Below, in pieces: positions 47,958 through 63,956 of a stretch of DNA of 64,000 bases. This stretch comes from Egicoccus sp. AB-alg2 (GTDB lineage: Bacteria > Actinomycetota > Nitriliruptoria > Nitriliruptorales > Nitriliruptoraceae). Each line of letters opens with the position of its first letter. The first letter of the stretch is position 1. A program made the translations under genes and the position numbers. The stretch is from positions 1 through 64,000 of the forward strand of contig NZ_JBGUAX010000007.1 of the NCBI RefSeq assembly GCF_041821065.1, written 5' to 3'. The notes under the pieces are model-generated. The model had not been told where the DNA came from and did no database searches. It saw only the letters and a program-made list of their open reading frames with translations.

Positions 47958-48970
47958 CGGCCGCCCTTTCGCTGGGACCACAGACCGGCCAGGGCCAGGG
48001 CCGCGATGACCAGCAGTCCGTCGATCAGTTGGCGCATCTCCGTCGGCGGGCGCAGTGCCACCACGACGTTGCTGAGCAACTGCAGGACCAGCACGCCGAC
48101 CACGGTGCCGCCCGCGCCGCCGGCCCCGCCGGACAGGCGGGTACCGCCGATGACCAGCGCCGCGATGGAGATCAGGGTCAGCCCGCCACCGGCCAGTGCG
48201 TCGCCGGACCCGCTGTTGGCCAGCATCGCGAACGACGCGAGTCCGGCGAAGGCGCCGCCGACGACGTAGGTCAGGACCTGGATCCGTACGACCCGGACCC
48301 CGGTCGCGTAGGCGGCCAGCTCGTCGCCGCCGACGGCGTACACGTGGCGCATGAAGCGGGTCCGCTTGAGGACCAGCCACACGCCGACGAGCGCGAGCAG
48401 CAGCCAGGCGACGTTGGGCAGGCCCAGCGTGGACTCGCGGAAGCCCTGCACGAACCCCTCGGGCATGCGCGGCGCGGCCTCGCCGCCCCCGGCCGGCGGG
48501 AGCACGTACAGCGCCAGGCCGGCCCACACGAAGCTGGTGGCGAAGGTGGCCACGATCGGTTGCAGGCGAAGGATGCCGACCAGCAGCCCGTTCGCGAGCC
48601 CGCACGCCGCGCCGACGCCCAGGCCGACGAGCATGGCGGGCAGCATGCCGAGCGGCTCGACCAGCGTGACCGTCACGACGCTGGACAGCGCCGCGATGAT
48701 GCCGATGGACAGGTCGATCCCACGGCCGAGGACGATGATGGTCTGCCCGACGGCCACCGCCGCCAGGGGCAGCGCGTTGGCGAGGATCGAGCGCAGGTTG
48801 AACGCGGTCAGGAACCGGTCGTTGATGGCGAGGTTCACGACGAACGCGATCGCGAGCAGCACGAACGCGGTCGCGGTCGGCAGGCGGCCGGCCAGCAGCC
48901 AGTCACCCGCACCGCGGAGACGCTCGCCGAGGTCGGGGTCGGTGCGGGACTCGGTACGGGTGTCGCTCAT
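47954..48970 (-). CDS. sugar ABC transporter permease 1 (RbsC type)
   Basis: This 338-residue permease is homologous to the next gene, with GRGIDLSIGIIAALS and VIGGTRLSGGAGGAGGTVVG motifs. The ATG overlaps the ATPase stop (ATGA) and its stop overlaps the second permease start, so ATPase and both permeases are translationally coupled. The two permeases likely form a heterodimer. Confidence 0.92.
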   Translation of the reverse strand: MSDTRTESRTDPDLGERLRGAGDWLLAGRLPTATAFVLLAIAFVVNLAINDRFLTAFNLRSILANALPLAAVAVGQTIIVLGRGIDLSIGIIAALSSVVTVTLVEPLGMLPAMLVGLGVGAACGLANGLLVGILRLQPIVATFATSFVWAGLALYVLPPAGGGEAAPRMPEGFVQGFRESTLGLPNVAWLLLALVGVWLVLKRTRFMRHVYAVGGDELAAYATGVRVVRIQVLTYVVGGAFAGLASFAMLANSGSGDALAGGGLTLISIAALVIGGTRLSGGAGGAGGTVVGVLVLQLLSNVVVALRPPTEMRQLIDGLLVIAALALAGLWSQRKGGR

Positions 48971-50484
48971 CGGTCCACCACCTGCAGGGACGAGGCGACG
49001 AGGCGGTCACGGCTGAGGTCCTCACGCTGGAGCTCGTCCACGACCTGGCCCTCGTAGAAGACCAGCACGCGGTGGCTCAGCCCGAGCAGCTCCTCGTCGT
49101 CGCTGGAGTTGAGGATGACGGCCACGCCCTCGTCGGTGAGGCGGGCGATGACCTCGTAGAGCTCTTCCTTGGCGGCCACGTCGATGCCCTTGGTCGGGTC
49201 GTCGAGCAGCACGACCCGGGGCGATTCCAGCAGCCACTTGCCGACGACGACCTTCTGCTGGTTGCCGCCGGAGAGCGTGCTGACGGGGTCACGCACCGAG
49301 CCGAGCTTGATGCGCAGCTGTTCGACCGCCGCCTGCGCGGCCGCGATCTCACGCCGCTGCCTGAGCAGGCCGACACCGACGGCGCGACCGCGCATGCTGG
49401 CGATCGTCAGGTTCTCCAGGATGGGCCGCACCGGCAGCAGGCCCTCGCGGGCACGGTTGCCGGGCACGAAGGCGATGCCGGCCTTCACGGCGTGGCTCGG
49501 ACGCCGGACGCGGATCTCGCGCCCGTCGAGCAGCAGGCGCCCGCCGCGGTGCCGCTCGGCACCGAAGATGGCGGCGAGCAGGTCGGACTGGCCCTGCCCG
49601 GCCAGACCCCCGAGGCCCAGCACCTCGCCGGCACGGACCTCCAGCGAGATGCCCTGGAGTCGGCTGGTGGTGAAGTCCTCGACGGTGAGCACGACCGGCT
49701 GCTCGCCGACGGTGTGGCTCTCCACGACCTCACCGGCCGCCTCGGCGGCGCCGGCGAACTGGCCGACCATGAGTTCGACGAGCTGCTGCTCGGAGGTCTC
49801 CGCGAGATCGACCGCGCCGACGAGCTCGCCGTTGCGCAGGATCGTCGCCCGGTCGCAGACCGCGTAGATCTCTCCCATGCGGTGCGACGTGAAGATGACG
49901 AGGGTTCCGGCGTCGCGCAGCTCCCGGACGACGTCGAACAGGACCTCGACCTGGGCCGCGTGCAGCGAGGCGGTGGCCTCGTCGAGCACCAGCACCTGCG
50001 GATGCCGCGCGATGGCCTTGCAGATCTCCACGATCTGCTGTTCACCCGGGGAGAGCTGGGCGACCGGGACGTCCACCGGCAGCCGGCCCCGGAAGGCGGC
50101 GGCGAACCGCTGCAGCACCGCCTCGGCGCGTTCCCGGATCGAGCCCGGACGGAGGAAGCCGGCCCTGGTCTCCTCGAACGCCAGGGCGATGTTCGCCGCG
50201 ACGGTCAGGTCGGGGATCAGACTCAGTTCCTGGTAGACGGCCGCGATGCCGTGCTCGTGGGCGTCCTGCGGGCGCGCGACGCGCAGCGGCTCGCCGTCGA
50301 GCGAGATCTCGGCCCGGTCGGGCGCCGCGACGCCGGTGAGGATCTTGTTGAGGGTGCTCTTGCCGGAGCCGTTGGCGCCGAGCAGCGCGTGGACCTCGCC
50401 GCGCTCGGCGGACAGGCTCGCGCCACGGAGGGCGACGACGCCCCCGTAGCGCTTGTGCACGTCGTGCATCTCGAGGAAGGACAC
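48967..50484 (-). CDS. sugar ABC transporter ATP-binding protein (RbsA type)
   Basis: This 505-residue double ATPase has a complete first domain (Walker A GANGSGKSTLNK, LSPGEQQIVEICKA, VLVLDEATAS) and a second with degenerate Walker A (GLAGQGQSDLL) and [18 protein letters not shown] 50484 has GGAG 6 nt upstream. It follows the binding-protein gene after a hairpin, matching the arrangement of the arabinose system. Confidence 0.92.
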   Translation of the reverse strand: MSFLEMHDVHKRYGGVVALRGASLSAERGEVHALLGANGSGKSTLNKILTGVAAPDRAEISLDGEPLRVARPQDAHEHGIAAVYQELSLIPDLTVAANIALAFEETRAGFLRPGSIRERAEAVLQRFAAAFRGRLPVDVPVAQLSPGEQQIVEICKAIARHPQVLVLDEATASLHAAQVEVLFDVVRELRDAGTLVIFTSHRMGEIYAVCDRATILRNGELVGAVDLAETSEQQLVELMVGQFAGAAEAAGEVVESHTVGEQPVVLTVEDFTTSRLQGISLEVRAGEVLGLGGLAGQGQSDLLAAIFGAERHRGGRLLLDGREIRVRRPSHAVKAGIAFVPGNRAREGLLPVRPILENLTIASMRGRAVGVGLLRQRREIAAAQAAVEQLRIKLGSVRDPVSTLSGGNQQKVVVGKWLLESPRVVLLDDPTKGIDVAAKEELYEVIARLTDEGVAVILNSSDDEELLGLSHRVLVFYEGQVVDELQREDLSRDRLVASSLQVVDR

Positions 50485-50531
50485 GGCTCGCTCCGTCGGA
50501 CGGCCACGCGTGACGGCCGGTGGCAGGTGGT

Positions 50532-50580
50532 GAGGGGCGCCGGTGCGCGGTGGACTCACGATGAGTGTCCGGCGCCCCTC
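50532..50580 (-). terminator. intercistronic hairpin after the binding-protein gene
   Basis: A 12-bp stem GAGGGGCGCCGG / CCGGCGCCCCTC encloses a 25-nt loop with an inner ACTCA / TGAGT stem. It starts 10 bp past the binding-protein stop and precedes the ATPase start by about 50 bp, probably reducing read-through. Confidence 0.65.
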
Positions 50581-50589
50581 GTGCGTCGG

Positions 50590-51696
50590 CTACTGCAGGT
50601 AGCCGCGCACCTCCTCCTCGGAGAGGATGACGTCGACGGAGTAGCCGTCGGGCTGGCCTTCGACGTCGGCCAGCCACTCGTCGAGCTCGTCGCTGGTCAC
50701 GTCGTCGGGCAGGGGCAGGAACAGCGTGTTGCCGTTCTCGAGGTTGTCCTCGGCGATGGCCTCGCCCTGGAGCTCCAGCAGCGCGAAGCGCAGCGCGGTG
50801 GCGCCGACGCCCGGCGGGTTCACGACCCCGATGGTGTCGATGCCGGCCTCGTCCCACAGCCGCAGGTAGCCGGCGCGGGCCTCACCCGTGGTGGTCAGGT
50901 CGAGCCGGTCCTCGTCGATGAGCGCCCGCAGCACGCCCTCGGCGACGCCGTCCTGGGCCCAGACACCGTCGATGGTGTCACCGTGCTGACCCAGCAGCTC
51001 CTGCATGACGGTCTGGCCCTCGGCCTGGCTCCAGTTGGCGTTGCCCTGGGCCACGACCTCGATGCCGGCCTCCTCGAAGACCTCCTGCGCACCGCCCCAT
51101 CGGGCCTCGTTGGCCGGGTGGCCGGCGATGCCGTTGACGCCCACGATCTGGGCGCCCTCGCCGAGCTGCTCGGCGAGCCAGCGGGCGCTGATCTTGGCCC
51201 ATTCGGCCTGGTCGATGACGACGTTGGTGACGGCCTCGCTGGTCACCGCCTGGTCGACGGCGTAGATGCGCACGCCCTCGGCCGCGGCCTCCTCGAACGC
51301 GGCGTTCAGCGCGTCCGGCGAGTTCGGGTTGATGATGATGGCGTCGACGCCCTGGTTGACGAGGTTGCGGATCTGCTCGATCTGCCCGGCTTCGTCGACG
51401 TCGTCGCTCTCGATGATGAGGTCGTCGACGAGCCCCTGCTCCTCGTACTCCGCGAACACCTCCTGGATGTTGTCGAGCATCTGGGTGCGCCACTCGCTGC
51501 CGGTGAAGCCGTTGCTCACCCCGATGGTGAAGGGACCGGCGGCTGCCTCGCCGCCGTCACCCGCTTCCTCGCCGGCCTCCTCGCCGGTGCCGGCGGCGGT
51601 GCCGTCGTCCCCGTTGCCGCCGCATGCCGTCAGGACCAGCGCCACAGCGGTGCTGATGCCCAGCAGCAGTCGGCCTCTCGAACGCGTCGAGCGCAT
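50590..51696 (-). CDS. sugar-binding lipoprotein of the second ABC importer
   Basis: This 368-residue type 1 binding protein is a lipoprotein (lipobox ALVLTAC) with an acidic Gly/Glu linker and mature start GPFTIGVSNGFTGSEWRTQM. The SNGFTGSEWR segment resembles ribose-type binding proteins, but ligand residues cannot be assigned. GGGAGGAA lies about 5 nt before ATG 51696. It follows the ROK regulator gene and precedes the ATPase. Confidence 0.9.
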   Translation of the reverse strand: MRSTRSRGRLLLGISTAVALVLTACGGNGDDGTAAGTGEEAGEEAGDGGEAAAGPFTIGVSNGFTGSEWRTQMLDNIQEVFAEYEEQGLVDDLIIESDDVDEAGQIEQIRNLVNQGVDAIIINPNSPDALNAAFEEAAAEGVRIYAVDQAVTSEAVTNVVIDQAEWAKISARWLAEQLGEGAQIVGVNGIAGHPANEARWGGAQEVFEEAGIEVVAQGNANWSQAEGQTVMQELLGQHGDTIDGVWAQDGVAEGVLRALIDEDRLDLTTTGEARAGYLRLWDEAGIDTIGVVNPPGVGATALRFALLELQGEAIAEDNLENGNTLFLPLPDDVTSDELDEWLADVEGQPDGYSVDVILSEEEVRGYLQ

Positions 51697-51741
51697 GCCG
51701 TTCCTCCCTGTTCTTCTCCCGCGTCTCACGCGGGTTGTCTG

Positions 51742-51787: not shown

Positions 51788-52993
51788 TCACGTCACCCCG
51801 TTCACGAGGCGATCCACCGCCCCCGGTGCCAGCACCTCGGCGAGCACCATCGCGCTGGCGCCGGTGATGCCGGCGCGATCGCCCAGCTGCGCGGGCACCA
51901 CCCGGAGGTGGCGCGTCGCCAGCGGCAACGACCGTCGGTAGACGACCTCGCGGACGCCCGCGAGCAGTTGCTCGTGCGCGTTCGCCATGTCACCCCCGAT
52001 GACGATCACGGCGGGGTTGAAGAAGTTCACGGCCGCGGCCAGGACGGCACCGAGCTCGCGGCCCGCCTCGCGCACCGCGCGGGTGGCCTCGCGGTCCCCC
52101 GCCAGGACCAGGTTCACCACGTCGCGGGCGTCACGGGCGGAGGAGCCGAGCGAGCGCAGCCGTTCGGCGATCGCCTGGCCGCCGGCGACGGCCTCCACGC
52201 AGCCGGTGTTGCCGCAACGGCACAGCGCGTCGTCGGCACCGGGCACCCGGACGTGCCCGAGGTCGCCGGCGGCGCCCTGCGCGCCGCGGTGGACCCGCCC
52301 GGAGGCGATCACGCCGCAGCCGATGCCCGTGCCGACCTTGATGAACAGCAGGTCGTCCACCTCGTGGCGCCAGGCCGCCCAGTACTCGCCCAACGCCATG
52401 ATGTTCACGTCGTTGTCGACCAGGACCGGGACGTCGTAGTCGGCGAAGTGGGCCGGCACGGGATAGCCGTCCCACCCCGGCATGATCGGCGGTGAGACCG
52501 CCCGTCCCGAGCCGTGCTCGACCGGGCCGGGCAGCCCGATGCCGATGCCCCGCACGTCGGCGCGCCCACGGCCCAGTTCGTCGAGCAGCTGCTCGAAGCC
52601 GGCACGAACCCAGTCGAGCACGGGGCCGGGACCTTCGGCGATCGCCCGGTCCTCGGCCCGCTCGACGAGCAACTCGCCGGCCAGGTCGGTCACGGCGAGG
52701 CGGGCGTGGGTCGCCCCGAGGTCCGCGACGAGCACCAGACCGTGGTCGTGGTTGAACCGCAGCCGCACCGCCGGACGTCCGCCCGTCGAGGCGCCGGCCC
52801 CGTCCTGGACCACCAGGCCGGCCGCCAGCAGCGCGTCGACGCGCTGGGAGACCGCCGTCCGGGAGATCCCGCTGAGCTCGACCAGCTGCGGACGGGTCGA
52901 GGCGGCGCCCTCCCGCAGCAACTGCAGCAGGTGCCCCGGTGAGCCCGGCGCGGTCGTCGGCCACCCGTTGGTGGTGGTCAGCAGTTCTCCCAT
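51788..52993 (-). CDS. ROK-family transcriptional regulator 1
   Basis: This 401-residue NagC/XylR-type regulator has an N-terminal winged helix (RPQLVELSGISRTAVSQRVD) and a ROK sugar-kinase-like domain with DLGATHARLAVTD, GIGIGLPGPVE, VLVDNDVNIMALGEY and the zinc motif CRCGNTGCVE. The ATG lies 8 nt after a TTATCA -10 box, so the mRNA is probably leaderless. It drives leftward with the ABC transporter and diverges from the ebo-like operon. It is a close paralogue of the ROK gene at the right end (VDNDVNIMALGEY and SPPIMPGW identical). Confidence 0.93.
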   Translation of the reverse strand: MGELLTTTNGWPTTAPGSPGHLLQLLREGAASTRPQLVELSGISRTAVSQRVDALLAAGLVVQDGAGASTGGRPAVRLRFNHDHGLVLVADLGATHARLAVTDLAGELLVERAEDRAIAEGPGPVLDWVRAGFEQLLDELGRGRADVRGIGIGLPGPVEHGSGRAVSPPIMPGWDGYPVPAHFADYDVPVLVDNDVNIMALGEYWAAWRHEVDDLLFIKVGTGIGCGVIASGRVHRGAQGAAGDLGHVRVPGADDALCRCGNTGCVEAVAGGQAIAERLRSLGSSARDARDVVNLVLAGDREATRAVREAGRELGAVLAAAVNFFNPAVIVIGGDMANAHEQLLAGVREVVYRRSLPLATRHLRVVPAQLGDRAGITGASAMVLAEVLAPGAVDRLVNGVT

Positions 52994-53292: not shown

Positions 53293-53337
53293 ATGCCGCA
53301 CCGCACCACCACCCCCGACCGGACGGTGACGCGATGA
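53293..53337 (+). CDS. 14-codon leader peptide overlapping the isomerase-like gene
   Basis: ATG 53293 opens MPHRTTTPDRTVTR and stops at 53335-53337. It has a strong purine-rich binding site (GGGAGAGGAACGGGA) right before it. Its stop overlaps the ATG of the next gene as ATGA, while that ATG itself has only a weak site. Translational coupling through a leader is plausible. Four threonines and three arginines in 14 residues might also support attenuation, but no matching biosynthesis is nearby. Confidence 0.45.
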   Translation: MPHRTTTPDRTVTR

Positions 53338-54281
53338 CGAACGCGAACACGGGCGTCCTGCGCCGCGTCTGGCTGAGCCTGGCCGCCGTCGGCCTCGCCG
53401 TGGCGATGGCCATGGCCGGCACCACCTCGGCCGAAGCCGCCGCCGAGCGGGCGACGCCGAACAAGCCCGACCACGCCAAGTGCAGCACCGGCCGCAACAT
53501 CCCGCTGAACCACGTCTCGATCCAGCTGTGGACGTTCAACTCGGCCATCAACCAGCACGGCATCGAGCACGTGCTGACCGAGCTGGCCGACATGGGCTAT
53601 CGCAACATCGAGCCCTTCAGCTACCACGGACTGTCCGCCCAGGAGTTCAAGGACCTCGCCGACGACCTCGGCCTGCGGATCCGCAGCCGTCACGGCAGCA
53701 CCAACGAGGCCAACTGGGACAGCCACCTGGCGGACGCCAAACTGTTCAACCAGCGCTGGACCGGCTCGGGCGGCTTCGCCTCGCCGGGCATCAACAGCTA
53801 CGAGAACGTCCTGGCCACCGCCGAGACCCTCAACCGGCTCGGTGAGCGCTCGGTGAAGAACGGCACCGGCAAGATCTTCGGCCACAACCACGCCGTCGAG
53901 TTCGAGACGCAGTACGTGGACGTCGAGGGTGACGGCGAGCTCAAGAGCGCCTGGCAGATCCTGGTCGAGAACACCGACCCGCGTTGGGTGACCTTCCAGC
54001 TCGACGTCGGCTGGGCCGACCGCGCGGGCGAGGACAGCGTCGCGCTGCTCGAGGAGTTCGGCGACCGCATCGAGCTCCTGCACGTGAAGGACTTCGTCAC
54101 GGACGAGGACGGCAACTGGGTCTCGTGGGTCCCCGTCGGTGACGGCGAGATCGACTGGCCGGCCGTCTTCCGCGCCGCCCAGGGCAACGTGAAGCTGTAC
54201 GTCGTCGAGCAGGACTTCCCCGCCGACGCGTTCGAGACCGCCCAGCGCAGCATCGACTACCTCGACTGCCTGAGCTTCTGA
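53334..54281 (+). CDS. secreted xylose-isomerase-like TIM-barrel protein
   Basis: This 315-residue sugar-phosphate isomerase/epimerase-family barrel has a clear signal peptide (VGLAVAMAMAGTTSAEA), which is unusual because most family members are cytoplasmic. Motifs include VSIQLWTFNSAINQHG, GYRNIEPFSYHGLS, GHNHAVEFETQ, FQLDVGWADRAG (Asp metal ligand) and LLHVKDF; these provide the usual Glu, Asp and His ligands. The ATG overlaps a 14-codon leader ORF. Between it and the inositol-phosphate-synthase gene lies a hairpin, so it may be expressed more strongly than the rest. Probable extracellular sugar epimerase or isomerase. Confidence 0.85.
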   Translation: MTNANTGVLRRVWLSLAAVGLAVAMAMAGTTSAEAAAERATPNKPDHAKCSTGRNIPLNHVSIQLWTFNSAINQHGIEHVLTELADMGYRNIEPFSYHGLSAQEFKDLADDLGLRIRSRHGSTNEANWDSHLADAKLFNQRWTGSGGFASPGINSYENVLATAETLNRLGERSVKNGTGKIFGHNHAVEFETQYVDVEGDGELKSAWQILVENTDPRWVTFQLDVGWADRAGEDSVALLEEFGDRIELLHVKDFVTDEDGNWVSWVPVGDGEIDWPAVFRAAQGNVKLYVVEQDFPADAFETAQRSIDYLDCLSF

Positions 54282-54289
54282 TCCATCCC

Positions 54290-54329
54290 GACGGCCCCGT
54301 CCCCGGTCATCCCGGAGGGCGGGGCCGTC
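54290..54329 (+). terminator. hairpin after the secreted isomerase-like gene
   Basis: A 10-bp outer stem GACGGCCCCG / CGGGGCCGTC encloses TCC / GGA and CCGG / CCGG inner pairs. It begins 8 bp past the stop and ends 46 bp before the next start, so it is a terminator or attenuator inside the operon. Confidence 0.75.
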
Positions 54330-54375
54330 CCTGTCCCCGCACCACCGCCGCACCACCATCGAGAAAGGACGCACC

Positions 54376-55515
54376 GTGACACGCACCGGGGTCTGGCTGG
54401 TCGGCGGACGCGGCTCGGTCGCCACCACGGCCATGGTCGGCGCGGCCGCGGTCGCCGCTGGCGCCGCGCGGCCCGAAGGCATGGTCACGGCCTCGGCAGG
54501 CTTCGACCAGGCGCGGCTGGCACCCGTCGACGACCTGGTCTTCGGCGGGCAGGACGTCGTCTCCACGCCACTGGTCAAGCGCGCCGAACAGCTCGCGCAG
54601 GGTGGCGTGTTCCCGGCCCCGCTGGTCGGTGTCGTCGAGGACCGGCTGTCCGTGCTCGACGAGCGCGTGCGCACCTGCCCCGCCGCGGGCGACACCTCGC
54701 CACGCACCGCCGTCGACGCCATGCGCCACGACCTCCACGCCTTCCGCGCCGCCGAGGACGTCGAGCGCCTCGTCGTCGTCAACCTCGCCTCGACCGAGGC
54801 ACCGGCGGCGTGGGAACAGCCGCCGCTGCGCACCGAGGACCTCGACCGCAGCTTCGACGCCGGTTGGGACGCGGCCACGCCCAGCCTGGTCGCGGCGATC
54901 GCCGCCCTGGAGGCCGGCGCCGCGTTCGTCGACTTCACCCCCGGCGCCGCTCTGACGGCGCCGGCCGTACTGGCGCTCGCCGAGGAGCGGGGCCTGCCCG
55001 TCGCCGGTCGCGACGGCAAGACCGGCGAGACGCTGCTGAAGTCCGTGCTGGCCCCCATGTTCGCCCACCGCCACCTGCCGGTGCACTCCTGGGCCGGGAC
55101 CAACCTGCTCGGCGGCGGTGACGGCGCCCGGCTGGCCGACCCGGCCCACGCCTCCAGCAAGCTGGCCAGCAAGGGCCGCACGCTGGAGACCATCCTCGGC
55201 CCCGACGTCACCCAGCCCGTCCACATCGACTGCGTGCCGGACCTCGGCGAGTGGAAGACGGCCTGGAACCACGTCCACTTCACCGGCTTCCTGGGCACCG
55301 GGATGCAACTGCAGCTGACGTGGCAGGGCTGCGACTCGGCCCTGGCCGCGCCGCTCGTGCTCGACCTCGCCCGCCTGCTCGACCTCGCGCTGCAGCGGGG
55401 TGATCGCGGCGCACAGGCCGGGCTCGGCTACTTCTTCAAGGACCCCGTAGGCACCGACGACCACGGGTTCTGGTCGCAGCTGTCCACGCTGGAGCGCTGG
55501 GTGGCCGGCGCATGA
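54376..55515 (+). CDS. inositol-3-phosphate synthase family protein (ebo-associated)
   Basis: This 379-residue protein resembles myo-inositol-1-phosphate synthase: an N-terminal NAD motif VWLVGGRGSVATTAMVG and the core GRDGKTGETLLKSVLAP, SWAGTNLLGGGDG and SSKLASKGRTLETIL with catalytic lysines. It would cyclise a hexose 6-phosphate to an inositol phosphate or a related cyclitol. AAAGGA lies 6 nt before the GTG. It is the first of seven tightly coupled genes, where cyanobacterial ebo clusters carry the dehydroquinate-synthase-like EboD. A special product rather than bulk inositol is inferred from the operon. Confidence 0.88.
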   Translation: MTRTGVWLVGGRGSVATTAMVGAAAVAAGAARPEGMVTASAGFDQARLAPVDDLVFGGQDVVSTPLVKRAEQLAQGGVFPAPLVGVVEDRLSVLDERVRTCPAAGDTSPRTAVDAMRHDLHAFRAAEDVERLVVVNLASTEAPAAWEQPPLRTEDLDRSFDAGWDAATPSLVAAIAALEAGAAFVDFTPGAALTAPAVLALAEERGLPVAGRDGKTGETLLKSVLAPMFAHRHLPVHSWAGTNLLGGGDGARLADPAHASSKLASKGRTLETILGPDVTQPVHIDCVPDLGEWKTAWNHVHFTGFLGTGMQLQLTWQGCDSALAAPLVLDLARLLDLALQRGDRGAQAGLGYFFKDPVGTDDHGFWSQLSTLERWVAGA

Positions 55516-56396
55516 CCGCCCGCCACCCCGCCCCCGCCGACCTCGCCGACCTCGTCCGCCTGCCCGCGGTGCTCAGTGTGCCCGGCGACGTGCTCGCCGG
55601 CGCCTCGCTGGCCGTCGACGACCGGCGCCTGCCGGCCCGGGCCGCGGCCCTGGCCAGCGCGTCGTGCCTGCTCTACCTCGGCGGCATGGCGCTCAACGAC
55701 GTCGCCGACCACCGGATCGACCAGGACGAACGGCCCCACCGGCCGATCCCGTCGGGGCGGGTCCCGCTGGCGACCGCCACCCGTCTCGGCCACGGGCTGA
55801 TGGCGGCCGGGCTCGGGCTGTCGGCGCTCGCGGGCCGTCGCTCGCTGGCGGTCGCGCTGCCGCTGGCCGGCGCCGTCTACGCCTACGACTTCGCGCTCAA
55901 GGACACCGCGGCGGGGCCGGCGGCGATGGCGGCCTGCCGGGTGCTCGACGTGCTGCTGGGCGCCAGCATCGGTCACACGCGGCGGGCGGCCCCCGCTGCC
56001 GCGGCCGTGGGACTGCACACCTACGCGCTCACCACGGTGAGCCGCCACGAGACGACCGGCGACCGGCCCGACGTCGTCCGCGGCGCCGCCCTGGCCGGCC
56101 TGGCCGCTGCCGCCCTCACCGGCGGGACCGTCCGGCGCCGTGGCCGCAGCGGCGGCCGCCTGCTCGCCGCGGCACCGTTGCTGGCGCACGGGGCCCTGCA
56201 GGCCCGCGCCGCCCAGCGGGCGGTGCGGACGCCCACGCCGGCCGCGACTCAGCAGCTCGTCGGCACGAGCGTGCTCGGGTTCGTCCCCTTGCAGAGCGCC
56301 GTCTCGATCGCCTGCGGTCGACGCGTCCTGGGTGCGGGACTGTTGTCGTTGTGGCCGGTCGCACACCGCCTCGCCCGGCGCCGGGCCGTGACGTGA
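55512..56396 (+). CDS. UbiA-family prenyltransferase (EboC-like)
   Basis: This 294-residue integral membrane prenyltransferase has about eight helices. The first aspartate motif is NDVADHRIDQDERPHRPI and the second is YDFALKDTAAGP, both needed to bind prenyl diphosphate and Mg2+. The ATG overlaps the previous stop (ATGA). It should attach an isoprenoid to a polar acceptor at the inner membrane face, and the adjacent cyclitol synthase suggests a cyclitol acceptor (inference). A polyprenyl diphosphate synthase gene is found at the end of the operon, on the opposite strand. Confidence 0.92.
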   Translation: MTARHPAPADLADLVRLPAVLSVPGDVLAGASLAVDDRRLPARAAALASASCLLYLGGMALNDVADHRIDQDERPHRPIPSGRVPLATATRLGHGLMAAGLGLSALAGRRSLAVALPLAGAVYAYDFALKDTAAGPAAMAACRVLDVLLGASIGHTRRAAPAAAAVGLHTYALTTVSRHETTGDRPDVVRGAALAGLAAAALTGGTVRRRGRSGGRLLAAAPLLAHGALQARAAQRAVRTPTPAATQQLVGTSVLGFVPLQSAVSIACGRRVLGAGLLSLWPVAHRLARRRAVT

Positions 56397-57244
56397 GCCG
56401 CCTGCGCTTCGCCTACGGCACCAACGGGCTGGCGGACCACCGGCTCGGCGACGCGCTGGCCCTGCTCGCCCACCACGGCTACGACGGCGTCGCGCTCACG
56501 CTCGACCACCACCACCTCGACCCGCACGCGCCCGACCTGCGCGCGCGGGTCCGGGCCGTGCGCCGCGACCTCGAACGCCACGGGCTGACGGCGGTCGTGG
56601 AGACCGGCGGAAGGTTCGTCCTGGATCCATTCCGCAAGCACGAGCCGACGCTGCTGTCCGACGACGGCCGCGAGCAGCGCCTGGCATTGCTGATGACCGC
56701 CGTCGAGGTGGCCGCCGACCTGGGCAGCGAGGTCGTGCACCTGTGGTCGGGTCGGCGCCCCGACGAGGTGTCTCCCGCGGTCGCCTGGGACCGGCTGGTG
56801 GCCGGCTGCGCGCAGCTGCTGGCCGCAGCCGAGGACCACGGGATCCGGCTGGCCTTCGAGCCCGAGCCCGGCATGCTCGTCGACCGCCTCGACGCCTGGG
56901 AGCGCCTGCGCGACGTGCTGGACCGGCATCCGCGCTTCGGCGTCACGCTCGACCTCGGCCACTGCGTGTGCCTGGAGGACGATCCCGTCGCCACCTGCGT
57001 GCGCCGCGCCGGCGACGCGCTGTTCCACGTCCAGGTCGAGGACATGCGCCGCGGAGTCCACGAGCACCTGCCCTTCGGCACGGGTGAGCTGGACCTGCCC
57101 GCCGCCCTGGCCGCCCTGCACGACCTCGACTACCGCGGGCTCGTGTCCGTGGAGCTGCCGCGTCACAGCCACACGGCGCACACGCTGGTGCCCACGTCCC
57201 TGTCCGCGTTGCACGCCGCCGACCGGGAGGTCGCCCACCGATGA
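56393..57244 (+). CDS. sugar phosphate isomerase/epimerase (TIM barrel)
   Basis: This 283-residue AP-endonuclease-2-type TIM barrel starts at a GTG that overlaps the prenyltransferase stop (GTGA). Conserved metal ligands are suggested by LAFEPEPGMLVD, TLDLGHCVC, HVQVEDMRRGVHEHLPFGTGEL (in parts) and VSVELPRH. It has no signal peptide. It is distinct from EboE two genes on, though both share the fold. It probably isomerises or epimerises the cyclitol or sugar precursor. The stop overlaps the EboA start. Confidence 0.87.
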   Translation: MSRLRFAYGTNGLADHRLGDALALLAHHGYDGVALTLDHHHLDPHAPDLRARVRAVRRDLERHGLTAVVETGGRFVLDPFRKHEPTLLSDDGREQRLALLMTAVEVAADLGSEVVHLWSGRRPDEVSPAVAWDRLVAGCAQLLAAAEDHGIRLAFEPEPGMLVDRLDAWERLRDVLDRHPRFGVTLDLGHCVCLEDDPVATCVRRAGDALFHVQVEDMRRGVHEHLPFGTGELDLPAALAALHDLDYRGLVSVELPRHSHTAHTLVPTSLSALHAADREVAHR

Positions 57245-57984
57245 CCACCACCTCCGACACGCCCGTACCCGACGCGGCCGCGCTGCTGGCGATGCTCGAC
57301 CGGCGCCTCGAACCCGACGGCCGCGCCTGGTACGAAGCCGCCGTCGCCGCGGTCCGCGCCGACCCCACGGCCGTCCGTGCCCGCTTCCCCGCCGTCGGCC
57401 GTGAGCTGGGCCGCCGCCCGCTGGCCCCCGACGCCGACCCGCAGGACCTGCACATCTGGTGGGTGGAGGACGCCGGGCGCGCGGGCCTGCTGCTCGCGCT
57501 CGGGCCGGCCGTCGAGGCAGAGCTGGCCGACCTGTACCGCTTCGGCGACGCGGCCGAGCGGCGCGGGATCCTGCGGGCACTGCCGTACCTCGACCTCGCC
57601 GACCACGGTGTCGGGCTGGTCGAGGACGCGCTGCGGACCAACGACCTGCGCCTGATCGCCGCCGCGCTGGGGCCGGCCGCGGACCACCTCGACGACCACG
57701 CCTTCGCGCAAGCGGTGCTGAAGGCCGTGTTCGTCGGCCTGCCACTGCACGGCGTGAGCGGCCTCGACAGGCGGGTCACGCCGGACCTGTCGCGGATGCT
57801 GGCCGGCTACGTGCACGAGCGGATCGCCGCCGGTCGCGACGTCCCCGCCGAGGTGTGGCCGCTGATCGACCGGCATCCGCCCGCCGACGAGCTCGCGGCC
57901 ATCACCGCCGAGCTCGACCATCCCGTCGCCGACCGCCGTGACGCCGCCCGCGCCGCCCTGCGCCAGCGGGCCGTCCGTACCTGA
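57241..57984 (+). CDS. eboA: EboA-domain protein
   Basis: This 247-residue soluble all-helical protein is recognisable as EboA by its conserved core (AGRAGLLLAL, RRGILRALPYLDL and FAQAVLKAVFVGLPLHGVSGLDRR, given as fragments) and by its position between the isomerase and the TatD-like hydrolase. EboA has no known catalytic activity; in cyanobacteria the cluster is needed for moving a scytonemin precursor to the periplasm. The start overlaps the preceding stop (ATGA). Confidence 0.82.
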   Translation: MTTTSDTPVPDAAALLAMLDRRLEPDGRAWYEAAVAAVRADPTAVRARFPAVGRELGRRPLAPDADPQDLHIWWVEDAGRAGLLLALGPAVEAELADLYRFGDAAERRGILRALPYLDLADHGVGLVEDALRTNDLRLIAAALGPAADHLDDHAFAQAVLKAVFVGLPLHGVSGLDRRVTPDLSRMLAGYVHERIAAGRDVPAEVWPLIDRHPPADELAAITAELDHPVADRRDAARAALRQRAVRT

Positions 57985-57997
57985 TCGGAAAACCCAG

Positions 57998-58867
57998 ATG
58001 CGCCTGTTCGACCCGCACGTCCACATGACCTCCCGCACGACCGACGACTACGAGGCCATGGCGGCCGCCGGGGTGCGCGCGATCGTCGAGCCCGCGTTCT
58101 GGCTCGGCCAGCCGCGCACGAACGTCGGCAGCTTCGTCGACTACTTCGACGGCCTGCTCGGGTGGGAGCCGTTCCGGGCCTCGCAGTTCGGCATCCGCCA
58201 CTTCTGCACGATCGCGCTCAACCCGAAGGAGGCCAACGATCCCGGGCTGCGGCGCGACGTCCTGGAGCTCCTGCCGCGCTACCTCGCCAAGGACGGGGTC
58301 GTCGCGGTCGGCGAGGTGGGCTACGACAGCGCGACGCCCGAGGAGGACGAGGCGTTCGCGGCACAGCTCGAACTCGCCAAGGCCCACCGGCTGCCCGTGC
58401 TGGTCCACACCCCGCATCGCGACAAGCTCGCCGGCACCCGCCGCACGCTGGACGTCGTGCGCGAGGCGGGGATCGATCCGGCGGACGTCATCGTCGACCA
58501 CAACAACGAGCTGACCGTCGACGTCGTCCGTGAGCACGGTTGCTGGGCGGCGTTCTCCATCTATCCCGACACCAAGATGGACGAGGTGCGGATGGTGCGC
58601 CTGCTCCAGCAGCACGGCACCGAGCGCATGCTCGTCAACTCCGCCGCCGACTGGGGCCGCAGCGACGCGCTGAAGGTCGCCAAGACGGCGCGGGCCATGC
58701 TCGACGCCGGCTTCGACGAGGACACCGTCGACCAGGTGGTGTGGCGCAACCCGGTCGAGGTCTTCGGACGCAGCGGGCGGCTCGACCTCGACACCCCGGC
58801 CGACGGCTTCGACGCGACGGCGACCTTCGCGGGCAACTCGGTGCTGCGGGGCGAACGGCCCGCCTGA
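57998..58867 (+). CDS. eboB: TatD-family metal-dependent hydrolase (EboB-like)
   Basis: This 289-residue TIM-barrel amidohydrolase-type protein has the HxH motif DPHVHMTSR, metal-ligand candidates VGEVGYDS, VLVHTPHRDKL and VDHNNELTVD, and a terminal NSAADWGRSDAL Asp. TatD relatives are nucleases or hydrolases, but the ebo version is thought to act on a small molecule. It follows EboA by 13 bp and overlaps EboE by one base (TGATG). The HxH, Glu, His, His, Asp set is intact, so it should be active. Confidence 0.88.
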   Translation: MRLFDPHVHMTSRTTDDYEAMAAAGVRAIVEPAFWLGQPRTNVGSFVDYFDGLLGWEPFRASQFGIRHFCTIALNPKEANDPGLRRDVLELLPRYLAKDGVVAVGEVGYDSATPEEDEAFAAQLELAKAHRLPVLVHTPHRDKLAGTRRTLDVVREAGIDPADVIVDHNNELTVDVVREHGCWAAFSIYPDTKMDEVRMVRLLQQHGTERMLVNSAADWGRSDALKVAKTARAMLDAGFDEDTVDQVVWRNPVEVFGRSGRLDLDTPADGFDATATFAGNSVLRGERPA

Positions 58868-60033
58868 TGCGCCTGCGACACGCGGACGGCAGCACGCTCC
58901 ACCTGGCCTACTGCAGCAACGTCCACGCCGAGGAGACCCCGGACGCGATCGCCCGCCGCCTGGCGACGATCGCCGGCCGCATCCGTGCGCGGACGGACAT
59001 GGCGCGCATCGGCGTCGGGCTGTGGCTCCCGGCGGCCGCCGCCCACCACCTGCGCCGCGACGGCGACGCCCGTGCCCGGTTCCGCGACGACCTCGAACAG
59101 GCGGGCGTCGAGGTGGTGACCTGCAACGCGTTCCCGTACGCGGCCTTCCACGCCCCGGTGGTCAAGCGCGATGTCTACCGGCCGGACTGGGCCGATCCCC
59201 GGCGCGCTGCGTTCACCGTCGACGTCGCCCACGTCCTGGCCGACCTGCTGCCCGACGACGTCGCGCAGGGCTCGATCTCCACGCTGCCGCTGGGCTGGCG
59301 GGCGTGGCTGGACGCCGACGGCCGGCGGGCGGCCGCCGAGGCACTCACCGACCTGGGTCGCGCGCTGCAGGACCTGGCCGAGCAGCGCGGGCGCACCGTC
59401 CGCGTCGGCCTGGAGCCGGAGCCCGGCTGCACCCTGGCGACCGCGGCAGCCGTCACCGAGTGGGTGGCGGACCTGAGCCAGCCGATGATCGGGGTCGCGC
59501 TGGACGCCTGCCACCTCGCGGTGGAGTTCGAGGACCCCGCGAAGACGGTGCGCCGGCTCGCGCAGGCCGCCACGCCGGTGGTCAAGCTGCAGGTCGCCAG
59601 CGCGATGCGCTCGGCCGACGGGCGCCTCGACGACCACCGCGAGCGTCTCGGGCCCTACGTCGAACCCCGCTTCCTGCACCAGACCCGGGCCGCCCCCGCC
59701 CCCGACGACGGCCGCGTGCCGGGGACCGACGACCTGCCCGAGGCGCTGGCCGGCGGCCTGCCGGACGGGCGCGAGTGGCGCTCGCACGTCCATGCCCCGG
59801 TGCACCGTGCCGAGGGCACGACCCAGGACGTGCTGATCGCGCTGCTGGACGAGGTCGTCGGCGGGCCGGCGCCGGTCACCACGCACCTCGAGGTGGAGAC
59901 CTACACCTGGACCGTGCTGCCGCCCGCCGAGCGGCCGGTCACGGACCACGACCTCGCCGACGCCCTCGCGAGGGAACTGACCTGGACGCGCGACGCCCTG
60001 CTCGCGCGCGGATGCACGGAGATCACGCCATGA
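58867..60033 (+). CDS. eboE: EboE-like metabolite traffic protein (xylose-isomerase-like TIM barrel)
   Basis: This 388-residue protein carries EboE hallmarks: YCSNVHAEETPD near the N-terminus, CNAFPYAAFHAPVVKRDVY then RPDWADPRRAAFT (together the EboE fingerprint), VGLEPEPGCTL, ALDACHLAVEFEDP and a C-terminal HLEVETYTW. Family members lack a known reaction but resemble xylose-isomerase-like enzymes. Its stop overlaps the next start (ATGA). No signal peptide. Confidence 0.87.
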   Translation: MRLRHADGSTLHLAYCSNVHAEETPDAIARRLATIAGRIRARTDMARIGVGLWLPAAAAHHLRRDGDARARFRDDLEQAGVEVVTCNAFPYAAFHAPVVKRDVYRPDWADPRRAAFTVDVAHVLADLLPDDVAQGSISTLPLGWRAWLDADGRRAAAEALTDLGRALQDLAEQRGRTVRVGLEPEPGCTLATAAAVTEWVADLSQPMIGVALDACHLAVEFEDPAKTVRRLAQAATPVVKLQVASAMRSADGRLDDHRERLGPYVEPRFLHQTRAAPAPDDGRVPGTDDLPEALAGGLPDGREWRSHVHAPVHRAEGTTQDVLIALLDEVVGGPAPVTTHLEVETYTWTVLPPAERPVTDHDLADALARELTWTRDALLARGCTEITP

Positions 60034-61415
60034 CCACCCCCGTCGTCGTCCTCGACGTGGTCGGCCTGACGCCGGCGCTGCTGCGGTCCATGCCGCGGCT
60101 GCAGGCGCTGGCCGCCGAGGGGTTCGCCGCCCCGCTGGACACGGTGCTGCCGGCCGTGACCTGCACGGTCCAGTCCACGCTGCTGACCGGCCGGCTGCCC
60201 CGCGACCACGGCGCCGTCGCCAACGGCTGGTACTTCCGCGACCTCGGCGAGATCCTGTTCTGGCGCCAGCACAACGCGCTCGTCCAGGGCGACAAGGTGT
60301 GGGAGCAGGCCCGCCGTGCCCGCCCCGACCACCGCACGGCCAACCTGTGCTGGTGGTATGCGATGGGCGCGAGCACCGACCTGACCCTCACCCCCCGGCC
60401 CGTCTACCACGCCGACGGGCGCAAGTCCCCGGACTGCTACACCTCGCCGCCGGAGCTGCGCGAGCGACTGCAGGCGAAGCTCGGTCCCTTCCCGCTGTTC
60501 CACTACTGGGGCCCGACCGCCGACCTCACCTCCTCGCGCTGGATCGCGGACGCCGCCCGACACGTGCTGCGCGATGACCCGGTCGACCTGCTGTTGGTCT
60601 ACCTGCCGCACCTCGACTACGACCTGCAGCGCTACGGCCCCGACGACCCGCGCGTGGTCACGGCCGCCCGCGAGATCGACGGTGTCGCCGGCGCCCTCGC
60701 CGACGAGGCGCGGTCGGCCGGAGCGGCGGTCGTCGTGCTGTCGGAGTACGGGATCACCGCGGCCGACCGCCCCGTCGACGTCAACCAGCACCTGCGTCGG
60801 GCGGGGCTCCTGGACGTGTACACGCAGGATGGGATGGAGTACCTCGACCCGTGGACGTCGTCGGCCTTCGCGGTCGCCGACCACCAGGTCGCCCACGTCT
60901 ACGTGCCGCACGCGGACCTCGTCCCGAAGGTCGCCGACCTGCTGCGCGGCCTCGATGGCGTCGAGGAGGTGCTCGACGAGGACGGCAAGCGGCGGGCCGG
61001 ACTCGACCACCCCCGGTCGGGCGAGCTGGTCCTCGTCGCCGAGCCCGGCGCCTGGTTCACCTACCGGTACTGGCTGGACGAGGCCCGGGCACCGGACTTC
61101 GCCCGCACCGTGGAGATCCACCGCAAGCCCGGCTACGACCCCGCGGAACTGTTCTTCGACCCGGCCGACCGGTTCGCGAAGGCACGCGCCGGGCTGACGC
61201 TGGCGCGGCGCAAGCTGGGCTTCCGTGGCGTCCTGGACGTCGTCCCGCTCGACCCGTCGCACGTCCGCGGCTCGCACGGCCGACTGCCGGACAGCGACGA
61301 CGAGGGGCCGATGCTGCTGTGCAGTGACCCGCGCTTCGGCCGGGACCGGTTCGCCGCCACCGACGTCGCGTCGTTGCTGCTGGCCCTGTCCGGGCTGGAG
61401 GCGCCGGTCGGCTGA
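60030..61415 (+). CDS. eboF: alkaline-phosphatase-superfamily phosphodiesterase (EboF-like)
   Basis: This 461-residue member of the nucleotide pyrophosphatase/phosphodiesterase fold has metal Asp9 (VLDVVGLTP), a nucleophile Thr in PAVTCTVQSTLLTGRLPRDHG (around Thr44, given as two overlapping parts of the family motif), a His/Asp pair in LPHLDYDLQRYG and a late RGSHG. The usual SDHG metal motif reads SEYG here, a variant that may alter metal binding. No signal peptide is seen, so it is cytoplasmic by sequence. It is the last gene of the coupled run. It may release a phospho-group from the product (inference). Confidence 0.85.
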   Translation: MTTPVVVLDVVGLTPALLRSMPRLQALAAEGFAAPLDTVLPAVTCTVQSTLLTGRLPRDHGAVANGWYFRDLGEILFWRQHNALVQGDKVWEQARRARPDHRTANLCWWYAMGASTDLTLTPRPVYHADGRKSPDCYTSPPELRERLQAKLGPFPLFHYWGPTADLTSSRWIADAARHVLRDDPVDLLLVYLPHLDYDLQRYGPDDPRVVTAAREIDGVAGALADEARSAGAAVVVLSEYGITAADRPVDVNQHLRRAGLLDVYTQDGMEYLDPWTSSAFAVADHQVAHVYVPHADLVPKVADLLRGLDGVEEVLDEDGKRRAGLDHPRSGELVLVAEPGAWFTYRYWLDEARAPDFARTVEIHRKPGYDPAELFFDPADRFAKARAGLTLARRKLGFRGVLDVVPLDPSHVRGSHGRLPDSDDEGPMLLCSDPRFGRDRFAATDVASLLLALSGLEAPVG

Positions 61416-61455: not shown

Positions 61456-62532
61456 TCAGCGGTCGCGGTCGACCACCAGGCGCAGCAGGTCGAGCAGCGG
61501 CTCCCGGGCCGCCGGCGGCAGGTCCTCGACGGCACGCCGCGCGCGGTCGGTGCAGCGCTCGATCTGCGCGTGGACCTCGGCCAGGGCCCCGCTCGTGACG
61601 ACGAGGTCCCGTACCGCCGTCAGGGCGGCCTCGCCGGCCTCCGGCGTCGCCAACAGCTGCTGCAGCCGTCGACGTGCGTCGTCTCGCGCCCGTGCCCGCG
61701 CGAGCACGAAGAGCGCGGTCGGGCGCCCCTGGCGCAGGTCCTCCAGCACACCCTTGCCGGTCCGGCCGGGACCACCGAACAGCCCGAGGACGTCGTCACG
61801 GAGCTGGAACGCCAGCCCGGCCGCGTCCCCGAAGCGGGCGAGTACCCCGCACCACGGGCCGTCGTCGGCGACGACGGCCGCGCCCAGTTGCAGCGGCCGG
61901 GTCACGGTGTAGCGGCCGGACTTCAGCACCGCGATCCGCAGCGCCTCCTCGGGCCGGTCGACGACCCCGCCGGAACCACGAACCTCGAGGTACTGCCCCG
62001 CGATCACCTCGGCGCGCAGGCGCCGCATCGCGCGCAACAGCGCGAGGCGGCGGGCGGGCGGCAGGTCGACGTCCTCGAGCAGGTCGTCGGCCCACGTCAT
62101 GGCGAGGTCACCGACCAGGATGGCGCCACTCGCGCCGAACCACGCCGCGTCGTCGCGGACGTGGGCGTGCTCGCCCCGCGACGCGGCCAGCGACGCGTGC
62201 ACCGACGGCACGCCGCGGCGGCGCGGCGAGCCGTCCATGACGTCGTCGTGCACCAGCGCGAACAGGTGCGTGAGTTCCACGGCGGCCCCGACCGTCGCGA
62301 CCGCATCCTCGGGCACCCCCTCGCCCGATGACGCCGCTGCGGCGTGGGCACCGGCCGCGACGAAAGCGGGCCGCAGGTGCTTGCCGCCGGCCCCCGCCAA
62401 CCGCTGGAGCTCGGTGCCGAGCCGGGCGGCGGCCGCGTCCAGCTCGGTCAGTTCGCGGGTGCGCTCGGCCAGGAACGCCTGGAGGCGGCGCGACGCCGCG
62501 AGGCTCACCGCGGGCGCCGCCGTCCCGAGCAC
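61456..62532 (-). CDS. polyprenyl (geranylgeranyl-type) diphosphate synthase
   Basis: This 358-residue class I isoprenyl diphosphate synthase has first aspartate motif LVHDDVMDGSPRRRG (DDxxD) and second motif FQLRDDVLGLFGG. There the last Asp is replaced, as in many actinobacterial GGPP synthases. Product chain length cannot be fixed. GTG 62532 has an AAGGGGGG site. It is convergent with the ebo-like operon and divergent from ROK regulator 2. Supply of prenyl diphosphate to the UbiA enzyme is the natural inference. Confidence 0.92.
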   Translation of the reverse strand: MLGTAAPAVSLAASRRLQAFLAERTRELTELDAAAARLGTELQRLAGAGGKHLRPAFVAAGAHAAAASSGEGVPEDAVATVGAAVELTHLFALVHDDVMDGSPRRRGVPSVHASLAASRGEHAHVRDDAAWFGASGAILVGDLAMTWADDLLEDVDLPPARRLALLRAMRRLRAEVIAGQYLEVRGSGGVVDRPEEALRIAVLKSGRYTVTRPLQLGAAVVADDGPWCGVLARFGDAAGLAFQLRDDVLGLFGGPGRTGKGVLEDLRQGRPTALFVLARARARDDARRRLQQLLATPEAGEAALTAVRDLVVTSGALAEVHAQIERCTDRARRAVEDLPPAAREPLLDLLRLVVDRDR

Positions 62533-62720: not shown

Positions 62721-63956
62721 ATGACGGCAAGCGGCAGGCGCAGCGGACGACGCGGTGGCAGCTCCCCCGGCGAGTTGCTGCGGCTGATCATGGACGGGCG
62801 CGCGACCACACGCACCGCGCTCGCCGAGGTCACCGGCCTGGCCCGCTCGACGATCGCCCAACGCCTGGAACCGCTGGTCAGCAGTGGCCTCGTGCAGGAG
62901 ACGGAGACCGGCGTGTCGACCGGCGGTCGGCCGCCGATGGTGCTGACCTTCAACCGCGCCGCCGGCGTCATCCTCGTCGCGGACATCGGCGCCACGCTGG
63001 TCCGGGTGGCGCTCACCGACCTGGCCGGCACGGTCCTGGCACGCACGTCACAGGAGCTGGCCGTCGCCGCCGGACCGGAGATCGTGCTGGGCGAGGTGCA
63101 GGCGCGCTTCGACGAACTGCTCGCCCAGGTGGGCCGCGCCGACACGGACGTGCGCGGCATCGGCATCGGCGTGCCCGGGCCGGTGGAGTTCGCGCGTGGC
63201 GTCGCGGTCAGCCCGCCGATCATGCCCGGCTGGAACGACTACCCGATCCCCGTACCGTTCGCGGCGCGCTTCCATGCGCCGGTGCTGGTCGACAACGACG
63301 TGAACATCATGGCGTTGGGCGAATACGAACGCTGCTGGCGCGACAAGGTCAACGACCTGCTGTTCGTGAAGATCGGCACGGGGATCGGGGCCGGCCTGAT
63401 CGTCGACGGACGGATCCGCCGCGGCGCCCAGGGGGCGGCCGGCGACATCGGCCACATCCGCGTCGTGGGCGCCGACCACGTCGTGTGCCCGTGCTCGAAC
63501 GTGGGCTGCCTGGAGGCGGTGGCGGGCGGCGGCGCGCTGGCACGCCAGTTGCGCGAACACGGCAAGCAGGCGGCCGGTCCCGCCGAGGTCGTCGACCTGG
63601 TGCGACAGGGCGACCCGGACGCCGTCGGCCTGGTGCGCGGTGCGGGGCGACAGCTGGGCATCGTGCTGGCCGGGCTGGTGAACCTGCTCAACCCGGCGGT
63701 CATCGTGGTCGGCGGGCGCCTCGCCAACGTCGACCAGCAGCTGCTGGCCGGCGTCCGCGAGTCGATCTACTCGCGCTCGCTGCCGCTGGCGACCCGCAAC
63801 CTGCAGATCGTGCGCAGCCAACTGGGCGAGAACGCCGGCATCGCGGGCGCCGCCGCGCTGGTGCTCGAGCACCTGCTGACGCCCGACGCGGTCGACGCCC
63901 GCCTGGCCAGCGGGGGCCTCGCCGGCGTGACCGGCGCATCGGCCGCCACCGGCTGA
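62721..63956 (+). CDS. ROK-family transcriptional regulator 2
   Basis: This 411-residue paralogue of the ROK regulator at 52 kb has a winged helix (RTALAEVTGLARSTIAQRLE) and ROK domain (DIGATLVRVALTDLAGTV, GIGIGVPGPVE, SPPIMPGW, VLVDNDVNIMALGEY). The zinc motif is CPCSNVGCLE, with Ser where the first ROK has Gly. ATG 62721 has AAGGCGAGG upstream; an in-frame ATG at 62706 would add five residues. It closes the locus and diverges from the prenyl synthase gene. Confidence 0.93.
   Translation: MTASGRRSGRRGGSSPGELLRLIMDGRATTRTALAEVTGLARSTIAQRLEPLVSSGLVQETETGVSTGGRPPMVLTFNRAAGVILVADIGATLVRVALTDLAGTVLARTSQELAVAAGPEIVLGEVQARFDELLAQVGRADTDVRGIGIGVPGPVEFARGVAVSPPIMPGWNDYPIPVPFAARFHAPVLVDNDVNIMALGEYERCWRDKVNDLLFVKIGTGIGAGLIVDGRIRRGAQGAAGDIGHIRVVGADHVVCPCSNVGCLEAVAGGGALARQLREHGKQAAGPAEVVDLVRQGDPDAVGLVRGAGRQLGIVLAGLVNLLNPAVIVVGGRLANVDQQLLAGVRESIYSRSLPLATRNLQIVRSQLGENAGIAGAAALVLEHLLTPDAVDARLASGGLAGVTGASAATG

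Follow-up and report, generated by a model that had tools for sequence, protein, structure and literature searches.

An inositol-phosphate-synthase variant of the ebo cluster, widespread in Actinobacteria and linked to sugar import and oxidation genes

A prenylated cyclitol has been proposed as the product of ebo gene clusters, based on the form that carries the cyclase EboD (PMC5133447, PMC6092422), and the scytonemin monomer needs Ebo to reach the periplasm (PMC6282210). In vitro, a relative of the prenyltransferase EboC transfers farnesyl groups to quinoline acids (PMC9235831); the same paper pictures Saccharomonospora clusters, and inositol is absent from its text. A fusion of actinobacterial EboA to a xylose-isomerase-like domain has also been noted (PMC5133447). 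Here, we describe an ebo-type operon of Egicoccus sp. AB-alg2 within the window, a stretch of 64,000 nucleotides (contig NZ_JBGUAX010000007.1, positions 1 to 64,000), in which a protein of the inositol-phosphate-synthase family (IPS) takes the place of EboD. It represents a real and widespread variant of the ebo cluster, and our literature search found no paper on this IPS form.

The operon (54376-61415) consists of seven tightly coupled genes in one direction on the forward strand: IPS, UbiA, TIM, EboA, EboB, EboE, and EboF. Gene calls and family assignments were checked on the sequence and by searches with curated family and Pfam profiles. IPS, an NAD-dependent sugar-phosphate cyclase by family (54376..55515; PF07994 and PF01658), begins with a GTG start and is followed by a UbiA-superfamily membrane prenyltransferase of the SCO3242 family, the EboC counterpart (55512..56396; NF045897), and by a TIM-barrel sugar isomerase/epimerase-like protein, here called TIM (56393..57244; PF01261). 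The remaining genes encode an EboA-domain protein (57241..57984; NF035938), the TatD-like metal hydrolase EboB (57998..58867; PF01026), the xylose-isomerase-like TIM barrel EboE (58867..60033; NF035939), and EboF, a type I phosphodiesterase of the nucleotide pyrophosphatase/phosphodiesterase (NPP) fold with altered metal ligands (60030..61415; PF01663). Overlaps of 4 nt occur at IPS/UbiA, UbiA/TIM, TIM/EboA, and EboE/EboF, and one of 1 nt at EboB/EboE; the only gap inside the operon, 13 nt, separates EboA from EboB. The sequence thereby confirms the coordinates of the seven-gene coupling reported in a preliminary description of this locus. With homologues of the EboA domain, EboB, and EboF all in one operon, the locus belongs among the ebo clusters, and its arrangement is far beyond chance because the identical gene order recurs across tens of genera.

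The distribution of this operon was traced by scanning bacterial and archaeal genomes with an IPS alignment, which returned at least 568 relatives. From these we retained the 80 best matches, almost all of which carry an actinobacterial label. We examined 65 full-length IPS-type loci from 28 genera and 14 families, with phyla outside the Actinobacteria sampled through plasmid records only. The order IPS, UbiA, TIM, EboA, EboB, EboE, EboF is kept in most loci, and all six genes besides EboA are within reach in 54/65. The preliminary description had placed an IPS-family cyclase in EboD's position and suggested a search for clusters of IPS, UbiA, and Ebo genes without EboD; EboD was found near none of the 65 full-length loci (0/65). 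A search for a hidden EboD in the window genome returned one gene of the dehydroquinate synthase (DHQS) family, located on another contig, and with this lone distant gene and the 0/65 count we rejected a hidden EboD in these genomes and loci. Among 396 actinobacterial genomes sampled evenly, EboE scores over its cut-off in 17 and IPS adjoins it in 16, while in the seventeenth (G381) EboD adjoins EboE and IPS is missing. A decayed ebo cluster with broken UbiA and EboE is present in another genome, in which EboE falls under the cut-off (G269, locus L147).

All ten EboD-type clusters compared, drawn from four phyla (Pseudomonadota of the Alpha- and Betaproteobacteria, Deinococcota, Bacteroidota, and one Actinobacterium), are without both IPS and TIM (10/10). 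TIM itself is present in 61/65 IPS-type loci versus 0/10 EboD-type clusters (p = 1.2e-9). No cluster combines IPS with EboD, and TIM accompanies IPS, so that IPS and TIM jointly replace EboD, two genes for one; the original idea that IPS stands in for EboD is well supported and is here extended to TIM. The label "actinobacterial" likewise describes where the variant is widespread, and is too narrow for its full range: an IPS-type cluster resides on a Gemmatirosa plasmid, and haloarchaeal plasmids carry a more distant IPS-type ebo-like cluster (L200, 5109-11659; L201, 4933-11606; L206, 5229-11530) with IPS, UbiA, EboB, EboF, and two TIM proteins, in which no EboA or EboE was recognised. One Actinobacterium, moreover, has the EboD form.

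IPS and TIM are also found together outside ebo clusters. Plasmids of Methylobacterium, Hymenobacter, and Roseomonas (L202, L203, and L204) harbor an unrelated operon with IPS, a TIM protein 47-49% identical to that of the window, and a Gfo/Idh dehydrogenase, and in L203 and L204, the two that are annotated, YcaO and a PIG-L deacetylase are named as well. The recurrence of the pairing in an unrelated YcaO-containing operon suggests that IPS and TIM share one substrate series.

Phylogenies suggest that UbiA follows the cyclase. A single switch of cyclase, with EboD types as one monophyletic group, is rejected on the EboB/EboF tree (approximately unbiased test, p = 3.9e-55) and on the EboB/E/F tree. 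The Gemmatirosa IPS-type proteins nest among the Deinococcus and G381 EboD-type proteins on the EboB/EboF tree, and Gemmatirosa EboB/E/F group with the EboD types. On the UbiA tree, a single branch (support 81) separates EboD-type from IPS-type proteins, and Gemmatirosa UbiA is kept apart from Deinococcus/G381 UbiA (p = 0.003). Cyclase type therefore fits the UbiA tree and not the EboB/EboF tree, suggesting a joint exchange of cyclase, TIM, and UbiA. If UbiA prenylates what the cyclase makes, the two would be expected to change together, and the trees support, without proving, such a role of the cyclase product as acceptor. The reading that UbiA follows the cyclase is the simplest one and has moderate support, drawn from few exchanges. 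The preliminary description had argued that a prenylated cyclic polyol is the shared logic of ebo clusters; the co-variation of cyclase and UbiA speaks in its favor, and the idea itself had already been put forward for the EboD form.

The closest solved relative of the operon IPS is the Archaeoglobus fulgidus enzyme (1u1i, E 7e-57), and Ari2 (6k96) is a further one (E 7e-10). Both Pfam domains and the catalytic Lys/Asp/Asn set of myo-inositol-1-phosphate synthase are present. Equivalents of A. fulgidus D225, N255, K274, K278, K306, D332, and K367 are conserved in 91/91 actinobacterial operon-family sequences; five of these (D225, K274, K278, K306, and D332) we take to be catalytic positions. 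Lys 367 and Asn 255 are catalytic in the A. fulgidus enzyme (PMC11348189). At the position of A. fulgidus D259, which is Asn in all other IPS compared, the actinobacterial operon family has Gly throughout (G247 of the window protein); this residue falls in a conserved NxLGNxDG stretch and is unusual there. The operon protein is not the mycothiol-type housekeeping inositol synthase INO1, as it scores 25.8 bits with TIGR03450 against a cut-off of 638 and the genome has a separate IPS. This second IPS lies on another contig of the Egicoccus genome (98.5% complete), so the operon protein is not the sole housekeeping inositol synthase of the window genome, an objection that the preliminary description had itself raised. 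A second IPS is present elsewhere in 14/16 IPS-type actinobacterial host genomes; none was found in G268 or in the incomplete G318.

The window UbiA passes the SCO3242-family profile NF045897 (277.6 bits, cut-off 260) and fails the EboC equivalog NF035940 (138.8 bits, cut-off 250). Its motif NDxxDxxxD is invariant, Arg143 is conserved, and its top solved match is digeranylgeranylglyceryl phosphate synthase, which prenylates a glycerol phosphate. TIM has a predicted structure of high quality (predicted local distance difference test score, 95) with sugar 3-epimerases as nearest folds, and its residues E156, D187, H190, and E254, the usual Glu/Asp/His/Glu set, are conserved. The EboA domain passes NF035938 (148.7 bits, cut-off 50) and EboE passes NF035939 (360.3 bits, cut-off 250), while EboB and EboF share 40-63% and 44-57% identity, respectively, with their counterparts from EboD-type clusters. 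The Foldseek nearest neighbor of the EboF NPP fold is Xac NPP (2e-18). Aligned to phosphonoacetate hydrolase, all forms of EboF show replacement of the metal-binding Asp, His, and His by Glu, Tyr, and, in most cases, Gln; other conserved His residues lie close to this altered site.

The strong linkage of the IPS-type ebo operon to sugar import and oxidation genes is new here and was missed by the preliminary description. Among the recurrent flanking genes, one encodes a large secreted protein that combines ThuA, GSDH, CBM6, and 3-keto-disaccharide hydrolase domains; others encode an RbsABC-like importer, a ROK regulator, a Gfo/Idh/MocA dehydrogenase, and additional TIM barrels. With score thresholds fixed, one or more of five linked gene types lie near 56/65 operons versus 0/39 control stretches, taken from elsewhere in operon-carrying genomes; since the queries were picked for their recurrence, the p-values of this linkage are inflated, and the control is clean. 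At least one of six linked gene types occurs in 26/28 genera, and 32 loci have a same-strand Gfo/Idh or ThuA gene that ends directly upstream of IPS. Haloarchaeal L201 and L206 have a pyrroloquinoline quinone (PQQ) sugar dehydrogenase or ThuA gene plus an ATP-binding cassette (ABC) importer close by, and several EboD-type clusters are without sugar import or oxidation neighbors. K-mer enrichment in the regions preceding the ROK, transporter, ThuA, and IPS genes yielded no convincing common operator.

In the window, two importer permeases (about 46971-49006), a sugar ABC importer ATPase with a periplasmic binding protein (48967..51729, reverse strand; PF00005 and PF13407), and a ROK-family regulator (51788..52993, reverse strand) that is 43-44% identical to the recurrent ROK neighbor precede the operon. 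A second ROK-like gene (about 62772-63956, forward strand) follows it, and a GSDH-PKD-CBM6 protein is encoded just beyond the window end. Directly upstream, a TIM-barrel (xylose-isomerase-like) protein (53334..54281, forward strand; PF01261), predicted from its sequence to be secreted through a signal peptide, is separated from IPS by 94 nt with a hairpin and probably belongs to a separate transcript; relatives are near 21/65 operon loci. Downstream, a short-chain polyprenyl diphosphate synthase (61456..62532, reverse strand; PF00348), found near 5/65 operon loci and 2/9 other operons, possibly supplies the prenyl donor.

From the gene content, order, replacement, conserved residues, and linkage observed here, we infer all substrates, the product, and the role. 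We consider it plausible, if somewhat short of probable, that the operon makes a membrane-anchored prenylated cyclitol that works with the linked sugar import and extracytoplasmic oxidation. IPS would cyclise a hexose phosphate, most likely glucose 6-phosphate to inositol phosphate, and TIM, perhaps with EboE, would alter ring stereochemistry or position. By analogy with digeranylgeranylglyceryl phosphate synthase, UbiA may then prenylate a hydroxyl of the ring with a C15-C20 chain; EboF and EboB would act on the phosphate and the head group, with EboA as a scaffold. IPS, TIM, and UbiA would move together, EboA, EboB, EboE, and EboF would form the chassis shared with EboD-type clusters, and the product would act at the cell surface alongside sugar import and extracytoplasmic sugar oxidation. 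Several points weigh against a prenylated cyclitol. The roles of the operon proteins are predictions from sequence and models, the Gly at the D259 position may mean that the substrate of the operon IPS differs, and in the one published assay of an EboD-type relative quinoline acids, not a cyclitol, were farnesylated (PMC9235831). Furthermore, the second ebo cluster (L157) of one actinobacterial genome (G128) has UbiA and TIM with no adjacent IPS or other cyclase, and the support of 81 for the UbiA grouping is not strong, with long branches. A wider generalisation is speculative and, in our judgment, quite improbable: the head group would come from an exchangeable cassette of cyclase, TIM, and UbiA set on a fixed Ebo chassis, and in Actinobacteria, Gemmatimonadota, and haloarchaea the resulting prenylated lipid of inositol type would serve sugar import and extracytoplasmic sugar oxidation as a cofactor or carrier in the membrane.

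The invariant Gly, where other IPS compared have Asn or Asp, also leads to an alternative in which IPS has changed substrate or product, as in Ari2, so that the prenylated product would be a cyclitol other than inositol. We regard this as possible, though on the unlikely side. Ari2 offers a solved relative within the IPS family, most host genomes (14/16) keep a separate IPS, and a C7 sugar phosphate has been proposed as the substrate in EboD-type clusters (PMC5133447); yet the operon IPS is closer to the true archaeal inositol synthase (E 7e-57) than to Ari2 (7e-10), and IPS-type UbiA from three groups accompany IPS both with and without the Gly. The sugar linkage admits another explanation, in which the prenylated carrier helps to move some other metabolite, or an intermediate of the sugar locus, across the membrane. 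A precedent has been proposed for the scytonemin monomer in Nostoc, and genes for secreted sugar-oxidising proteins and importers are linked to the operon, but the transporter in question works inward, as an importer, any cargo is hypothetical, and no flippase or glycosyltransferase was recurrent among the neighbor clusters identified, which together make this account unlikely.

Alternatively, IPS might merely supply inositol to the neighboring sugar locus, its proximity to the ebo genes being incidental. In two loci each of Lentzea and Micromonospora, IPS is separated from the ebo genes, that of Lentzea remaining with the sugar locus, and the operon IPS is the sole IPS of one complete genome. 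This explanation is nonetheless very improbable given the 4-nt IPS-UbiA overlap at the window locus, the position of IPS ahead of UbiA in nearly all loci, and the mutual exclusion of IPS and EboD.

The swap of cyclase families is a natural experiment that gives a concrete route to the ebo product: the IPS-type substrates glucose 6-phosphate, inositol phosphate, and geranylgeranyl diphosphate (GGPP) can be purchased, in place of guessing C7 sugars. In both Actinobacteria and archaea, the association with sugar uptake and secreted sugar oxidation extends the functional context of ebo beyond scytonemin and nematode repulsion, and relatives are present in many streptomycetes, including the calcium-dependent antibiotic (CDA) cluster of the model S. 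coelicolor.

Finally, we compare the operon with known systems. The operon IPS belongs to the same fold family as A. fulgidus inositol-1-phosphate synthase and matches it at each of the seven catalytic residues compared; it differs in the Gly at the D259 position and in being encoded in one operon with UbiA and the Ebo proteins. Ari2, a five-membered-cyclitol-phosphate synthase of aristeromycin biosynthesis, is also an IPS-family enzyme recruited to secondary metabolism; it is far more distant in sequence, and we know of no prenyltransferase partner for it. SCO3242-SCO3243 lies in the CDA cluster of Streptomyces coelicolor, and SCO3242 gives its name to the family of the window UbiA. SCO3243 is annotated as myo-inositol phosphate synthase in an expression table (PMC3610822), and no study among the literature searched treats the pair as an ebo-type unit. 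On a Streptomyces plasmid (L114), the operon adjoins a nonribosomal peptide synthetase gene (1-1630) and a phosphopantetheinyl transferase (12591-13379), a setting comparable to that of SCO3242-3243. The EboD-type ebo clusters of cyanobacteria, Bacteroidota, Pseudomonadota, Deinococcota, and eustigmatophyte plastids have EboA, EboB, EboE, EboF, and an EboC-related UbiA in common with the window operon, which in place of EboD encodes IPS and TIM, employs a UbiA of a sister family, and is linked to sugar genes.

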